This document shows, one piece after another, positions 491 through 6,596 of a stretch of 33,960 nt of DNA. The notes under the pieces were generated by a model. It saw only the letters and a list, made by a program, of their open reading frames with translations, was not told where the DNA came from and searched no databases. Source of the stretch: Bacilli bacterium (lineage in GTDB: Bacteria; Bacillota_I; Bacilli_A; ML615J-28; CAG-313); assembly GCA_017398545.1 (NCBI GenBank), contig JAFQFT010000021.1:159261-193220 (forward strand). Direction: 5' to 3'. Numbering within the stretch: position 1 is the first letter of the stretch; every line of letters starts with the position of its first letter. Position numbers and translations under genes: made by a program.

Positions 491-1852
491 TTATAATTGT
501 AATTCTTTAATTGTATCAACTTGTACTATCCTACTTAAGAATATTAATGCAATTAAATTCGGTATTGCCATAAGACCATTAAATATATCAGCTAAATTCC
601 ATATTAAATCTACTTTCAAGATTGCTCCAAAGAATACTGATAATACATATATTAATATATATAATTTTCTAATAAATTTATTATTGTTAGTTAAGTAACA
701 TACAGACTTTTCTCCATATACACACCAACCAATAATTGATGAAAATGCAAATATACATAAACATACAATTAATAATATAGAACTAAAAGTCTCATTAAAA
801 AATAAACCTTCTTTAAAAGCATAGTCAGTGATATATAATCCTTCTAAAGGATTTAACCAGGCATCAGTAACTATTACAACAAGTCCAGTAATTAAACAAA
901 ATATCATTGTAATAACCATTGCAGCCATTGATATTAAACCTTCATCGGTTGCAGAACTTGTTTTAGATGTTGCAAGAGCAATCGGTGTAGAACCAAGTCC
1001 TGCTTCATTTGCAAATATTCCTTTTTGTGCACCTGCTGTTATTGCTTTTAATATCGTGTATCCAGTAATACCACCTACAACACTTTTTGATGAGAATGCC
1101 ATTTTAAATATTGTAACAAATGCACTTGGAACACTGCCTATATTTAATATAATAATTAATAAACATAAACATAAATATAAGATTGCCATAAATGGAACAA
1201 TTTTTTCACAAACAACTGATATTCTTTTTAGACCACCAAATAAAACTATACCACATAAAACAGTAATAAATAACCCAATAATTATAGCAAGTATGGATAC
1301 ATCATAATTAAAGATAGTAATATAATGTTTTGGCTTAAATATTATATTAAATCCATCTACCATTGCATTACTTTGAGTCATTGTTCCCATTCCCATTACA
1401 GCACATAGTGCTGCTAAAAATGCAAATATTTTTGCAAGTGGAATGAATTTTTTTCCCATACCATATTCAATATAAGCAAATGGTCCACCAATAACTTCAC
1501 CGTCTTTATTTATTCTTCGATATTTTATTGCAAGATATCCTTCTGCATATTTGGTGGCAAGACCAAATAACGCAAACATAAACATCCAAAATAAACTACC
1601 TGCACCACCTACTGCAATTGCTGTTGATACACCAATTATATTACCAGTACCAAGTGTTGCAGATAAAGATATACATAAGGCTTGGAATGTTGTTACTTCT
1701 CCTAATTCATTACCTGATGGCTTCAGCATCAACTTAAAACCTTTACCAAGGCGTCTAAATTGAACCCCTTTTAATTTTATTGTTAAAATTATCCCCGTTA
1801 AAAATATTAAAATAAGTATTGGTACATACCAATAATTAATAATAAATTTCAT
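491..1852 (-). CDS. AGCS-family sodium:alanine/glycine symporter
   Basis: Integral membrane protein of 453 residues importing a small neutral amino acid (alanine or glycine in characterised members) with Na+. About ten hydrophobic segments are visible. Family signatures are SLSATLGTGNIIGVSTAIA near residues 63-82, GPFAYIEYGMGKKF near 124, and ANEAGLGSTPIALATSKT near 280. The length matches the AlsT/DagA family. The ATG at 1852 has AAGGGG upstream, and only 10 bp separate it from the dapF stop, so it is cotranscribed with dapF. Pairing with dapF hints at a link to cell-wall amino acid supply, but this is inference; the substrate cannot be read from sequence. Confidence 0.93.
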   Translation of the reverse strand: MKFIINYWYVPILILIFLTGIILTIKLKGVQFRRLGKGFKLMLKPSGNELGEVTTFQALCISLSATLGTGNIIGVSTAIAVGGAGSLFWMFMFALFGLATKYAEGYLAIKYRRINKDGEVIGGPFAYIEYGMGKKFIPLAKIFAFLAALCAVMGMGTMTQSNAMVDGFNIIFKPKHYITIFNYDVSILAIIIGLFITVLCGIVLFGGLKRISVVCEKIVPFMAILYLCLCLLIIILNIGSVPSAFVTIFKMAFSSKSVVGGITGYTILKAITAGAQKGIFANEAGLGSTPIALATSKTSSATDEGLISMAAMVITMIFCLITGLVVIVTDAWLNPLEGLYITDYAFKEGLFFNETFSSILLIVCLCIFAFSSIIGWCVYGEKSVCYLTNNNKFIRKLYILIYVLSVFFGAILKVDLIWNLADIFNGLMAIPNLIALIFLSRIVQVDTIKELQL

Positions 1853-1862
1853 TTTTTTCCCC

Positions 1863-2618
1863 TTATAAAGTTATTTCACCAACTTTAACACTTTCACCTT
1901 CCATATATATATCATTATTATCTATTGTAATTAATAAGTTACCAAGTGATTGTTGAACTATGACTTTATCATTTACAAGGTTTAATATTTTACTTACGAT
2001 TATACTACTACAAGAACCAGTCCCACATGCTTTAGTAAAACCAACACCTCGTTCATAAGTAATTATTTTTATATTTGATTCATCAATAATTTGAACAAAA
2101 TTTACATTCGTTTTATGTGGAAAATATTCATGATTTGATATATATGAACCTAAACTTTCTGTAATCTCACCACTTGTATATATTACTGTATGAGGAACAC
2201 CAAAGTTAAGTGAATAAACAAGATAATTATTGTTATTAAATTCTATGTTAAACTTATCTATTTTATCAACCATTTTTCCCATTTTTACTTTTACAATAAA
2301 TGGAGTAATTGATTTAATTTCTAAATGTTTTATACCATCAAGTGTATAACAATCAAAATTGTTACTTGATACTAAATTATGATTATAACAATAATAACTA
2401 AAACATCTTATTCCATTTCCACACATTTCACCACGAGTCCCATCTTGATTATAAAAAACCATTTCAAGTGGATTTTTTCTTACAACAATTAATCCATCAG
2501 CACCAATACCAGTGTAACGATTACATATAGATTTAATATAATCATGATTATTAATAATAGAAGTATCTTCTGTTATTAAAAAATCATTTCCAAGTCCATG
2601 ATATTTTTCAAATTTCAT
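1863..2618 (-). CDS. dapF: Diaminopimelate epimerase
   Basis: Converts LL- to meso-diaminopimelate, the last step before lysine and the DAP of peptidoglycan; cytoplasmic. The 251-residue product shows both halves of the cofactor-free racemase: N-terminal KYHGLGNDF, the first catalytic Cys66 in MCGNGIRCF, and the second, Cys198, in KACGTGSC, preceded by the substrate-binding ERG. I take the ATG at 2618 as start: it gives the canonical MKFEKYHGLGNDF N-terminus and lies 1 bp after the upstream stop, whereas a longer in-frame start at 2651 would overlap the upstream gene. No strong Shine-Dalgarno precedes it, so translational coupling is likely. This is the only lysine/DAP-pathway gene seen here. 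Confidence 0.96.
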   Translation of the reverse strand: MKFEKYHGLGNDFLITEDTSIINNHDYIKSICNRYTGIGADGLIVVRKNPLEMVFYNQDGTRGEMCGNGIRCFSYYCYNHNLVSSNNFDCYTLDGIKHLEIKSITPFIVKVKMGKMVDKIDKFNIEFNNNNYLVYSLNFGVPHTVIYTSGEITESLGSYISNHEYFPHKTNVNFVQIIDESNIKIITYERGVGFTKACGTGSCSSIIVSKILNLVNDKVIVQQSLGNLLITIDNNDIYMEGESVKVGEITL

Positions 2619-2619
2619 A

Positions 2620-3381
2620 TTATGCTTCTTTCTTTTTATTCTTTCTATCAATAAAATACCAAGGTAAGTATGCTATAACAAATAACGTCAATATTGCAAC
2701 TCCCATTATAAATACTCTTAATACAAAGTTTTTAGGTAAGATATCTAAAACTGATGCAGTATCTTCAGGTGTTGCCATAAATAAATAGTTAGCATCGCCA
2801 CCTAATGTAGTATTTGCGATATAAGCAATTACTGCAAGTACCGCAAGACATGCAAGAGATTTAAAAATTGATTTAAAATTAATTTTCATTCCATGAACAA
2901 ATATCATATAGAATAACGCAATATACCCAAGTAAATGTTCACACCAAAATTGATAATATCTAAATCTTGTAGGACCACAGTAAGCTATAACAGTTGGAGT
3001 TGCAAGAGCAAATAATGTTCCTGAGAACAACCAAAAATATGTTATATCAAATAATGTTTGATTTTTTGTAAGTAAATAGAATGCACTAAATATTACTGCC
3101 CATCCACATACTGTAATTGGTAAGTGATCTACTGGGTTAGGATTTAAATCAGGTACCCCTACTAATCGCCAGAAATACGACATCTCAGTAATGATTAAAG
3201 TAAAACTTAATATTAATCTAATTTTCTCATCCCATTTAGATTCTCTTAAGAAATCTTTATATCTATAAATTAAATATATAATCCCTACCGCAAGTAAAAT
3301 TGGTAAAATATGGGCAAGTGAAAAATACTTAAATTCTATTTTATCTCCAGCACCAAAAAAATAATGAAAAAACTCTCTCAT
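2620..3381 (-). CDS. YwaF-like (TIGR02206/TMEM164-like) membrane protein
   Basis: A 253-residue polytopic membrane protein with about seven hydrophobic segments. The pattern HLPITVCGWAV, WLFSGTLFALATP, RFRYYQFWCEHLLGY and NTTLGGDANYLFM is that of the YwaF family; function is not established in bacteria. The ATG at 3381 sits 8 nt after GGAGG (complement of 3390..3394). An in-frame TTG at 3396 overlaps that Shine-Dalgarno and is rejected. It is the first gene of the operon continuing into dapF, the symporter and dusB. A TATAAT-type -10 (complement of 3406..3411) lies just upstream without a convincing -35. Confidence 0.8.
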   Translation of the reverse strand: MREFFHYFFGAGDKIEFKYFSLAHILPILLAVGIIYLIYRYKDFLRESKWDEKIRLILSFTLIITEMSYFWRLVGVPDLNPNPVDHLPITVCGWAVIFSAFYLLTKNQTLFDITYFWLFSGTLFALATPTVIAYCGPTRFRYYQFWCEHLLGYIALFYMIFVHGMKINFKSIFKSLACLAVLAVIAYIANTTLGGDANYLFMATPEDTASVLDILPKNFVLRVFIMGVAILTLFVIAYLPWYFIDRKNKKKEA

Positions 3382-3439
3382 CTTCAATTCCTCCAAATTA
3401 CATATATTATACTACATTATATAATTTTTTAAAAGAAAA

Positions 3440-3457
3440 AGATATAAAAAAAGGATC
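3440..3457 (-). terminator. Terminator of SRP RNA
   Basis: On the minus strand the 3' arm of the closing helix ends GATCC and is directly followed by seven T and further T-rich sequence. The closing helix itself plus the T tract can serve as intrinsic terminator. Confidence 0.7.
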
Positions 3458-3568
3458 TATATCTTAAGTCCCCCCACCCACAAGTTACAAAAAGTTTAAG
3501 GCTGCTTCAATCACGATCTGACCTGGTTCGCTATGCAACCTTGGATGAAGGTACTTAAGATAAGATCC
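3453..3568 (-). ncRNA. ffs: Small SRP RNA (4.5S-like)
   Basis: Signal recognition particle RNA, which binds Ffh and targets nascent membrane proteins. The transcript strand contains ACCAGGTCAG followed by AUCGUGAUU and GAAGCAGCC, the conserved Ffh-binding helix 8 with its symmetric loop. Aligned to the E. coli core, the apical tetraloop reads UGAU, a URRU-type loop rather than GGAA. The ends form a long closing helix: GGATCTTATCTTAAGT at the 5' end pairs with ACTTAAGATATAGATCC at the 3' end, fixing the RNA at about 116 nt. A run of T follows the closing helix and a consensus promoter precedes it. It lies between the YwaF operon and an IS element. Confidence 0.95.
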
Positions 3569-3574
3569 AATGAT

Positions 3575-3603
3575 ATTATACTATAAAAATATTAATAAGT
3601 CAA
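3575..3603 (-). promoter_or_regulatory. Promoter of SRP RNA
   Basis: Minus strand TTGACT (complement of 3598..3603), 17 nt spacer, TATAAT (complement of 3575..3580). The first G of the mature RNA lies 7 nt after the -10, so start site and RNA 5' end agree. Confidence 0.88.
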
Positions 3604-3630
3604 ATTTAAAACTACTTGATTTTAAAAGAT

Positions 3631-3656
3631 AAAAAGTAGTTTTTAAACTACTTTTT
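3631..3656. repeat. Left copy of IS target-site duplication (duplicated terminator hairpin)
   Basis: A 26-bp near-palindrome, AAAAAGTAGTTT-TT-AAACTACTTTTT, identical to 5308..5333 on the other side of the IS. It directly abuts the left terminal repeat. Outside it the sequence is GAT, which pairs with ATC outside the right copy, so the uninterrupted site was a longer hairpin, the terminator of the acyltransferase gene. Confidence 0.9.
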
Positions 3657-3673
3657 CAGACTGTTGACAAACT
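3657..3673. repeat. IS left terminal inverted repeat
   Basis: CAGACTGTTGACAAACT, perfectly inverted at 5291..5307. Its inner part, ACAAAC, also pairs with GTTTGT three bases further in. Confidence 0.92.
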
Positions 3674-3691
3674 ATGTTTGTGAAAAAAGAA

Positions 3692-3723
3692 AAATTGAAA
3701 TATCTCAAATGGTATTTCAATTT
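3692..3723 (-). terminator. Terminator after the transposase gene
   Basis: On the minus strand AAATTGAAATA pairs with TATTTCAATTT around a 10-nt loop, followed by a T-rich tract. It lies inside the IS, about 40 bp after the transposase stop. Confidence 0.85.
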
Positions 3724-3760
3724 TTTGTTTAAGATATTAAAAAAAGAAATAACAAGCATA

Positions 3761-5209
3761 TTAAGCTATACTTGTTAATTTATTTTTTAGTTTTCGTTCT
3801 CTCTTTACTAATAAGAGAGCTAATTTTTTAATATTTAGGCATGCCAAAAGCAGAGCCAGAAAATTATGATTTTTTTCAAGCCCGATAAATCTTGTAAATC
3901 TAAGACCATGTTGTTCTTTTCCTACTGCAAACAAACGTTCAATTGTCGTCTTACGCATAGGATAGATGGTTTTACCAATTTCCGATAATCTGAAATCATT
4001 AGCAACAAGTCTGCAATCTTCATATATGTGACGTGTAACAGTCTTAAAAGCATAATTTTTTAAACATTCTTTTTTAAAAGGACAATTACCGCAATCTGTA
4101 CTATGGATTTTATATTGAATATTACCATCTTTAGAAATATTCCAAGGAATTAACCATTTTTTATTAGGACATCTATATTGATCAATTTCAAAGTAATAAT
4201 CAAATTCACGTTTTGAAAAAGTAGTAGTAGCACCTTTAGGTCTTGTATATGGAACTAATAAATGACAGTTATTAGTTTGTACATGATGAGCGATTAAATT
4301 ATTAGCGTATCCAGCATCAGCACACCAGATACTAGCATTAAACTTTGGTTGTAATCTATCAAAGAAAGGAAGAAAAGCAGTAGAGTCGTGCATATTACCT
4401 GGATTTAAATCAAAACCTAAAGCCCAACCATTTTTATCGCAAGCAACTTGAGCAGTATATGCGAATTGTCTTTCATGTTCACCTTTTACAAATAATCCAG
4501 CATCAGGATCCACAGTACTAACTGTAATTTCTTTAGTATTCTTATTTTTTACTTCTTTAACTTCCCCAGTTTTTTCATCAATCGTATAGTTTCCATCACC
4601 AAAATCATCATCATCAGATGGATACTTATCTCTTCCATTCATTTCTCTAAATTCATTAACTTCATTTTCTAATTCTTTATGGTATTTGTCAGTTATTATT
4701 TTAACCTGTTTTTTTATTCTTTTATTTTTATTAGCATTAGCTTTTATATGAGTACCGTCTACAAATATAACTTCAGGGTCAATTACATTATTAAATAATA
4801 ATTCTTCTAAAACTCTAGAAAAAATCATATCAAATATATTAGTATTTGAAAATTTACGTATATAATTTTGAGATATTGTAGAGTGGTTTGGAATTTTATC
4901 GGATAAGCCTAAACCTAAAAACCATCTATAAGCTAAATTAACTTTAGTTTCTTCACATGTTTTACGTAAAGAATTAATGCCAAAAATATAATTTATAAAT
5001 ATTAATTTAAACAGAATAACAGGATCAACACAAGGTCTACCATTGTCTTGACAATATAGATCGCGTGTTAAATCATGAATAAAGGAAAAGTCAATAGTTT
5101 TATCTATTTTACGTACTAAATGATCTTGTGGTACAAGTTCATCTAGGCAAGCTATTTCGGCTTTGTTTCTATCGTATTTAATAAAATTAGAATTCTTTTC
5201 GTTATACAT
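3761..5209 (-). CDS. IS1182-family DDE transposase
   Basis: Full-length transposase of 482 residues. The N-terminal helical DNA-binding part includes QDHLVRKIDKTIDFSFI and GRPCVDPVILFKLI; the RNase H-like core carries D151 (FVDGTHIKANANKNK), D298 (CADAGY) and E424 (KTTIERLFAVGKEQHGLR), the expected DDE triad. A small Cys cluster (CGNCPFKKEC, about 373-382) lies before the last catalytic residue, as usual in this family. ATG at 5209 follows AGAGG. No frameshift or internal stop is seen, so the enzyme is probably functional. It is transcribed from an internal promoter on the same strand as the interrupted locus. Confidence 0.95.
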   Translation of the reverse strand: MYNEKNSNFIKYDRNKAEIACLDELVPQDHLVRKIDKTIDFSFIHDLTRDLYCQDNGRPCVDPVILFKLIFINYIFGINSLRKTCEETKVNLAYRWFLGLGLSDKIPNHSTISQNYIRKFSNTNIFDMIFSRVLEELLFNNVIDPEVIFVDGTHIKANANKNKRIKKQVKIITDKYHKELENEVNEFREMNGRDKYPSDDDDFGDGNYTIDEKTGEVKEVKNKNTKEITVSTVDPDAGLFVKGEHERQFAYTAQVACDKNGWALGFDLNPGNMHDSTAFLPFFDRLQPKFNASIWCADAGYANNLIAHHVQTNNCHLLVPYTRPKGATTTFSKREFDYYFEIDQYRCPNKKWLIPWNISKDGNIQYKIHSTDCGNCPFKKECLKNYAFKTVTRHIYEDCRLVANDFRLSEIGKTIYPMRKTTIERLFAVGKEQHGLRFTRFIGLEKNHNFLALLLACLNIKKLALLLVKRERKLKNKLTSIA

Positions 5210-5235
5210 AAATTGACCCTCTCTTTATATTATAT

Positions 5236-5264
5236 ATTATACCACCTTTTGTAATTATTTTCAA
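5236..5264 (-). promoter_or_regulatory. Promoter of the transposase gene
   Basis: Minus strand TTGAAA (complement of 5259..5264), 17 nt, TATAAT (complement of 5236..5241), with TGG before the -10 (extended -10). Located 26 bp upstream of the ATG. Confidence 0.8.
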
Positions 5265-5290
5265 ATATAAAAAAAGTTGACAAACACTTA

Positions 5291-5307
5291 AGTTTGTCAA
5301 CAGTCTG
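5291..5307. repeat. IS right terminal inverted repeat
   Basis: AGTTTGTCAACAGTCTG, the inverse of the left end. Its inner GTTTGTCAAC (5292..5301) also pairs with GTTGACAAAC at 5276..5285, making a 10-bp subterminal stem. Confidence 0.92.
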
Positions 5308-5333
5308 AAAAAGTAGTTTTTAAACTACTTTTT
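5308..5333 (-). terminator. Terminator of the plsC-like gene; right copy of IS target duplication
   Basis: The 26-bp hairpin identical to 3631..3656. The last codons and the TAG stop of the acyltransferase (5325..5327) lie in its 5' arm. On the minus strand the 3' arm ends in TTTTT, so termination should persist despite the IS insertion. Confidence 0.85.
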
Positions 5334-6596
5334 ATCAAAATTAAAGTTTCTCCATTTACCATTATGATATCGATGAAGTGATTCAGTACACAAGAACCAT
5401 TTTTCGACAGTTTCATTTTCTGGATAAAATTCCATAAATTCACCCTTATAGAATGTATAAAAACGTGATAAATCGGTACACATACCATATGTTGGAATTT
5501 CACTTGTATTTAAATGAAAACTAAATGGTTCATTATTACAAGTACCAGTATATGTAAGCCCTGAATGATCTAAAGTAATAATACCTTCTCCTACTATTTC
5601 GGATGTTTTTTGATCTTTTAGATAATCATACTTTGGAAGCATTCCTAGTTTTACTTTTTCAGTTAATTTAAAATCTGGATTCTTTATTTCTTCTTCCGCA
5701 AGTTTTCTTTCTAAATTAAACCACTCTGTTTGAGTATTTGGAATTATACAAGAATCATCAAATGGTATCATCTCATATGTATTAGTAATTTCAGCACCAT
5801 TACCACACTTTGTACAATAAATTTTATTATTAGTTCCTTTCATTGTAAATTCACTCTTACATTTAGGACAATAATATAATAAATGATGAAGATTATATGC
5901 TATAGAACCATTAATTTTATATTCAATTTTAACTTCTTTATTCCATGCGTAATCATCATGATAAAGTTTTTCATTAATAATATCTTCAATTTCAGCAGGA
6001 GATAGTTTTTCTATTTCCTCTTTAGTAAACATAATATCATATACTACTTCTACTTTACCATATCTTTCAGTTAAATCATATTTTGGACTTGTTAAATAAC
6101 CACCTTTTATTACTGAGTAATATACCGGCATTTTAAAATGTTTAATAAACTTTCCTGTACCAACTGCTACAGGTTGATTAGCACCAGATATAGAACTCAT
6201 ACCTTCAGGATAAAGAATAATATTACCACCCTTTTTAATTACTCTTGATACTTCTTTAATTGTATAAATATCAGCTGTAAAATTCTTTTTTGGTATTACT
6301 CTTAATAATTTAAATACCATTGCTAAATGAGATCTAAAAAACTCATTATATCCTGCTACAAAATTAAATCTTTTAGGAAGAAGTGGAATTGCAGTAAACA
6401 TATAGTCAAGACGCGAAGCGTGACTTGATAATAAAATATATGGTTCTTTAACCTTTTTAATATCAGTTTTGAATATTGGTGTAACATTGTATTTTTTATA
6501 AAATAATAATTTCCAAATATATCCTAAAATTAGATATAGAATATTTGGCTTTTTTATTTTTCTAGAATGTAATTTTTGTGCTAATGTTTTCTTCAT
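5325..6596 (-). CDS. PlsC-family lysophospholipid acyltransferase with zinc-ribbon domain
   Basis: Predicted to acylate a lysophosphatidic acid-like substrate in phospholipid synthesis at the membrane. A hydrophobic segment (18-34) precedes the acyltransferase motif HASRLD (H59, D64), and block III YPEG lies at 129-132. The C-terminal half is unusual for PlsC: it holds a CPKC/CTKC zinc ribbon (C243, C246, C261, C264) and a long polar domain of about 150 residues with no recognised function. At 423 residues it is much longer than classical PlsC (about 240). ATG at 6596 has AGAGGT 7 nt upstream. The gene is intact: the IS entered its terminator, not its coding part. It may act on a lipid other than lysophosphatidate. 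Confidence 0.85.
   Translation of the reverse strand: MKKTLAQKLHSRKIKKPNILYLILGYIWKLLFYKKYNVTPIFKTDIKKVKEPYILLSSHASRLDYMFTAIPLLPKRFNFVAGYNEFFRSHLAMVFKLLRVIPKKNFTADIYTIKEVSRVIKKGGNIILYPEGMSSISGANQPVAVGTGKFIKHFKMPVYYSVIKGGYLTSPKYDLTERYGKVEVVYDIMFTKEEIEKLSPAEIEDIINEKLYHDDYAWNKEVKIEYKINGSIAYNLHHLLYYCPKCKSEFTMKGTNNKIYCTKCGNGAEITNTYEMIPFDDSCIIPNTQTEWFNLERKLAEEEIKNPDFKLTEKVKLGMLPKYDYLKDQKTSEIVGEGIITLDHSGLTYTGTCNNEPFSFHLNTSEIPTYGMCTDLSRFYTFYKGEFMEFYPENETVEKWFLCTESLHRYHNGKWRNFNFDKK

Follow-up and report, generated by a model that had tools for sequence, protein, structure and literature searches.

An IS1182-family clade that duplicates whole hairpins, mostly at the ends of genes

The element and the duplicated hairpin in the window

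How can an insertion sequence be inserted at the very end of a gene and leave that gene with its own stop codon and a full hairpin behind it? The question was raised by a locus in the window, which is the whole 33,960-nucleotide stretch of DNA analysed here, from a draft genome of a Bacilli bacterium. An IS1182-type element had been predicted at 3631-5333, and the annotation bore this out. The insertion sequence was 1,651 bp long and was located at 3657-5307 on the minus strand, with bounds given by the duplication and the identical 16-bp ends. The terminal inverted repeats, CAGACTGTTGACAAAC, were identical in 16/16 bp. They were found at 3657-3672 (plus strand), on the side of the 3' end of the transposase gene, and at 5292-5307 (minus strand), on the side of its 5' end. 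The transposase gene (3761-5209, minus strand) was intact and coded for 482 aa with DUF772 and DDE_Tnp_1_6 domains (Pfam, NCBIfam). The score of the transposase against the NCBIfam model NF033551 (IS1182) was 394.8 bits, compared to a curated cut-off of 270. The layout was that of the IS1182 family, with one ORF, terminal inverted repeats and a length within the family range of about 1.5-1.9 kb.

A repeat search gave two copies of a 26-bp sequence, AAAAAGTAGTTTTTAAACTACTTTTT, on both sides of the element, at 3631-3656 and 5308-5333, and the two copies were 100% identical. The sequence was a perfect 12-pair stem around TT, which folded as 11 pairs with a 4-nt loop. The second copy adjoined the host acyltransferase gene (5325-6596, minus strand; ORF with Pfam PF01553) and contained its TAG stop codon at 5325-5327 (minus strand). 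This confirmed the original prediction of a duplication that is itself a hairpin with a stop codon in one arm. A longer hairpin had also been expected upon rejoining the flanks. The outer GAT (3628-3630) and ATC (5334-5336), both read on the plus strand, paired in the rejoined site and gave a 32-nt hairpin, lengthening the stem to 14 pairs as folded. DNA folding gave −10.4 kcal/mol (z −6.5), with 0/200 shuffles as good, and RNA folding gave −15.0 kcal/mol (z −6.8).

The hairpin had been called a rho-independent terminator. It was located behind the gene, with the stop codon inside the stem and TTTTTATCTTTT after it, and was kept in the sister species G004 of the same genus. However, the stem had just two G-C pairs and the terminator scan gave no call. 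This meant that it was an AT-rich, terminator-like hairpin and not a classical terminator, and that its putative terminator role was based on its position and its conservation in G004.

G004 also provided an empty site. Its orthologous acyltransferase showed 91% amino-acid identity, and the gene ended in ...GAAAAAAAG TAG TTTAAAACTACTTTTTTTT, with exactly one hairpin copy, the stop codon at an equal position and no insertion sequence. The DNA of the window and G004 was 86.7% identical in the acyltransferase gene up to the end of the hairpin. On the other side of the element the identity was 85.5%. There the element was immediately followed by a bacterial small SRP RNA gene (3462-3557, minus strand; Rfam RF00169, 44.9 bits), and a TMEM164-family gene came next. 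In G004 the acyltransferase terminator was separated from the SRP gene by about 4.1 kb that was absent from the window, so the site was an orthologous empty terminator in a sister species rather than an identical empty strain. Small peptide-like ORFs were observed within this 4.1-kb stretch (about 1712-5823 of locus L231).

Hairpin targets and empty sites among relatives

The window element was present as a single copy in its draft genome. A search for a second copy there gave just a 36-bp fragment match, and no relatives of the transposase were found in genomes of the same genus. Since no other copy was available in this genome, the targets of other copies were examined in relatives. Scanning 84,980 species genomes yielded 282 relatives, and the best 80 of the 282 were kept. 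Both flanks were readable in 58 elements, including that of the window. An exact duplication of 15-34 bp was found in 43 of the 58, with 42 different sequences. All 43 duplications were hairpins. The dyad of the best hairpin coincided with the exact centre of the duplication in 42/43 and was one base off in the remaining one. Copies with unrelated, non-palindromic targets, which would speak against a choice by DNA structure, were looked for, and none was found among the 43 exact duplications of the clade.

The duplications started with A in 40/43 and ended with T in 41/43. The paired stem ran beyond the duplication in 33/43, which indicated that the cuts fell between paired bases in the A/T-rich lower part of the stem and did not always coincide with its very foot. 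Of the 126 element ends, 112 (89%) abutted a stem of six or more Watson-Crick pairs; the figure was 3.5% for random positions nearby and 4.0% when the flanks were shuffled. Copies that were 98-99.8% identical within one genome had different hairpins in Streptococcus varani, S. ictaluri and Lactococcus laudensis. Together with the hairpins in all 43 duplications, this supported the prediction that the target is chosen by DNA structure. In the complete genome G243, additional copies were also located at terminator hairpins. In S. ictaluri, the 24-bp hairpin AGGTTGAGACATATGTCTCAACCT was duplicated by two elements (L051 and L061) whose surroundings differed; this terminator is either repeated in the genome or was the target of two insertions.

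In a quick maximum-likelihood tree of 75 transposases, which was used for the clade assignments, 44 rows formed one clade (SH-aLRT 99), and the window element belonged to a subclade of 14 members (98). The ends in this clade were CAGNNTG..., with CAGACTG... in the window element. Its hosts were Mycoplasmatota, Erysipelotrichaceae, Clostridia, streptococci, lactococci and bacilli.

Exceptions were also observed. Among the elements readable at both ends, at least 11 had two different full hairpins, one per end, or a damaged copy (two different full hairpins: L035, L040, L042, L048, L068, L072, L073, L087, L093, L097, L099 and L271). The two-hairpin elements are probably the result of recombination between copies or of misjoined contigs in metagenome assemblies. 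Three elements (L055, L060 and L089) were left out as damaged, N-containing or assembly palindromes. The ISEfa7 copy L267, located in a rearranged stretch, lacked both a duplication and clean hairpins and counted neither for nor against the pattern. The plasmid copy L274 had no exact duplication, and its flanks were rearranged.

The whole palindrome might also belong to the element, with one hairpin at each end and a tiny or absent target duplication. The inverted repeat in the window did not stop at the palindrome but included it (46 nt at 96%), so that the window sequence alone cannot distinguish element-borne hairpins from a target duplication. The empty sites of relatives were decisive. 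For an element-bearing Listeria plasmid with a 21-bp duplication, the IS-free site with a single hairpin was found in four Listeria plasmid records (100% over 516 bp). The same was observed for a Streptococcus canis prophage element with a 26-bp duplication, with the IS-free site in phage Javan90 (100% over 207 bp), and for a Lactococcus plasmid element with a 20-bp duplication, with the IS-free site in Lactococcus plasmids (98.3% over 422 bp). One hairpin copy was present at each of the three sites, as the original prediction required of an empty site, and the duplication of the whole hairpin was thus demonstrated rather than assumed. The single hairpin of the G004 ortholog and the different hairpins of near-identical elements also stood against hairpins carried by the element. 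Hairpins as element parts were rejected by the single-copy empty sites, and we consider this reading practically untenable.

Target choice and the proposed joining

The targets were enriched at gene ends. They were located outside ORFs in 41/43, and 86% of random positions fell inside ORFs. A stop codon facing the target within 60 bp was present in 29/43, compared to 6% at random, and a T or A tract was beside the target in 35/43, compared to 8% of random positions. These counts indicated that most targets were terminators. The tract was also more common at the targets than among intergenic hairpins outside this set (24/53; Fisher p = 3e-4). The orientation of the element relative to the flanking gene showed no bias (21 vs 20).

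This location could be produced by selection alone, if insertion were nearly unspecific and the survivors were those behind genes, where terminator hairpins abound. Nearly all surviving copies were indeed at gene ends, where insertion does no harm. However, selection cannot give cuts that are dyad-symmetric in 42/43 duplications, nor a duplication length that tracks the length of the hairpin, and the stems abutted 89% of element ends against 3.5% of random nearby positions. We therefore regard unspecific insertion as very improbable. The survival of harmless insertions could still partly explain why terminators are preferred to hairpins of other kinds. It was also considered whether the target is transcription termination itself, in the form of a paused RNA polymerase, an RNA hairpin or an R-loop, and not a DNA hairpin. 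The excess of T/A tracts over non-target intergenic hairpins and the small number of targets within ORFs agreed with this. However, the duplication was symmetric on the DNA hairpin and disregarded the asymmetric tract, eight targets had no clear tract and two were inside ORFs. The unbiased orientation to the flanking gene and the use of non-terminator hairpins by IS1272 (PMC4923244) also argued against it. A target defined by termination is unlikely, though less so than unspecific insertion.

We favour, with a probability of about 0.86, that the transposase of this clade picks a DNA hairpin and joins the element at its 5' feet, and that gap filling duplicates the whole hairpin. The transposase would choose an extruded cruciform or a hairpin in single-stranded DNA, and in most cases an intrinsic terminator would supply it. 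On each strand, one 3' end of the element would be linked to the 5' foot of this hairpin; the joints would lie where the bases are paired, usually immediately 5' of an A. The long gaps would then be filled in, so that the whole hairpin is copied, one on each side, and the element ends up between two terminators. All insertion events were read from sequences, and from them we infer that the transposase reads folded DNA and that the strand chemistry of joining is of this kind. Since unrelated hairpins were used by more than 40 relatives, the element seems to choose DNA shape and not sequence. The original prediction was that duplication of the hairpin left the host gene its terminator and put one terminator on each side of the element, and two identical copies were indeed located at 3631-3656 and 5308-5333. 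With a full hairpin on each side, the upstream gene would retain the stop codon and the terminator that it had before, and the insertion would be neutral for the host gene.

The ends of the element might contribute to this insulation. The scan gave a terminator-like hairpin facing inward, formed from the terminal repeat and followed by TTTTTTT, at 5276-5301 (minus strand). It was located between the host gene and a promoter-like TTGAAA-17-TATAAT at 5236-5264 (minus strand), which lay ahead of the transposase start and was recognised by consensus only (11/12 matches). Such inward-facing terminator-like hairpins, partly built from the terminal repeat, were found at 38/43 upstream ends and 40/43 downstream ends of the clade, with 15/215 in the shuffled control for the upstream ends. 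The inward hairpins and the duplicated host terminators may jointly keep outside transcription from reaching the transposase and protect the neighbouring genes from the element.

Joining geometries and known systems

Hairpin targeting in the IS1182 family is not new. Siguier 2015, as cited in PMC4923244 and PMC5678879, described some IS1182 members as targeting palindromes, and the window element and its clade behaved in this way. Hairpin and terminator targeting was published for IS1272 and TnSha1 of staphylococci (PMC4923244, PMC5678879). These elements share with our clade the IS1182 transposase family and the use of any hairpin, often a terminator, with no primary sequence consensus. However, IS1272 removes the hairpin and leaves no duplication, whereas the clade of the window retains and duplicates the whole hairpin, and the ends also differ (CAGACTG... 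here). Stem-loop replacement, in which the hairpin is deleted and no duplication is made, did not describe the window, where the hairpin was intact and duplicated. Wan et al. 2017 (PMC5678879) presented one model with pathways a, b and c and gave data for a only. Their pathway b (Fig. 13) predicts the structure found here, with 3' ends at the 5' feet and the stem-loop duplicated on both sides. It was theoretical and had no example in that paper, whereas more than 40 insertions show it here. What is marked by whole-hairpin duplication is an entire transposase clade. No published report of such duplication as a rule of a clade was found among the papers searched.

Among the named elements of the family, ISEfa7 and IS1562 were close relatives by transposase (39-40% identical), with different hosts. 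A copy annotated as IS1562 in phage Javan87 had a 26-bp duplicated hairpin. Duplications of 4 bp are known for the other IS1182 members ISPse1 (PMC3281130) and ISCaa15 (PMC3196728). Elements that target REP sequences (ISPsy8, ISPa11, ISPpu9, ISRm19 and others; PMC1525189) also use palindromic, extragenic sites, but they recognise a repeated sequence family, whereas the targets of the clade all differ in sequence.

The hairpin-duplicating clade was one of three groups defined by ends and geometry, each on one branch of the quick tree (SH-aLRT 99, 100 and 100). The outcomes in the three groups are the ones that Wan et al. 2017 drew as pathways a, b and c. The other two groups consisted of more distant IS1182-family elements. 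In one of them, which follows pathway c, with ends GAGGYCACTGAAAAA or similar (L118, L120, L125, L126, L243 and others), the duplications were 8-9 bp. The clearest cases, such as aaaaaaagacca[AATAAGTT]tggtcttttttt, showed a duplication that covered the loop of a terminator hairpin together with two or three of its pairs. This group probably duplicates the loop of the hairpin; a long perfect stem was located just outside only 5 of 17 duplications, the rest being weak or a base off, which is why we keep this reading at probable. The other group, with ends GGGGCTGT/GAGGCTGTAACG or similar (L129, L138-L142, L145, L236, L244 and L246-L257), showed no duplication and had A and T runs as flanks. These elements looked as if they had replaced a terminator hairpin in the mode of IS1272, which would explain the flanking runs; the link to IS1272 is one of behaviour and not of sequence. 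On balance, we lean towards one family with three hairpin-recognising clades that attack different bonds, one joining at the 5' feet, one in the loop (GAGGYCACTGAAAAA) and one replacing the hairpin (GGGGCTGT). If this split is true, the published model would describe an actual evolutionary series, open to comparison at the level of single residues. With three clades of different geometry, the determinants of target joining become directly testable.

A theoretical branch of the transposition model thus becomes the documented behaviour of a widespread clade, and the clade offers a clear example of a target chosen for the shape of its DNA. In practice, where long palindromic repeats flank an IS1182 element, they should be interpreted as duplicated target and not as parts of the element. 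Terminators are also known as harmless landing places from Tn7, which inserts at the glmS terminator. However, Tn7 recognises the sequence of one gene and makes a 5-bp duplication. In the hairpin-duplicating clade, duplication of the terminator would explain how these elements enter compact genomes behind genes, with the stop codon and the terminator of the host gene kept.
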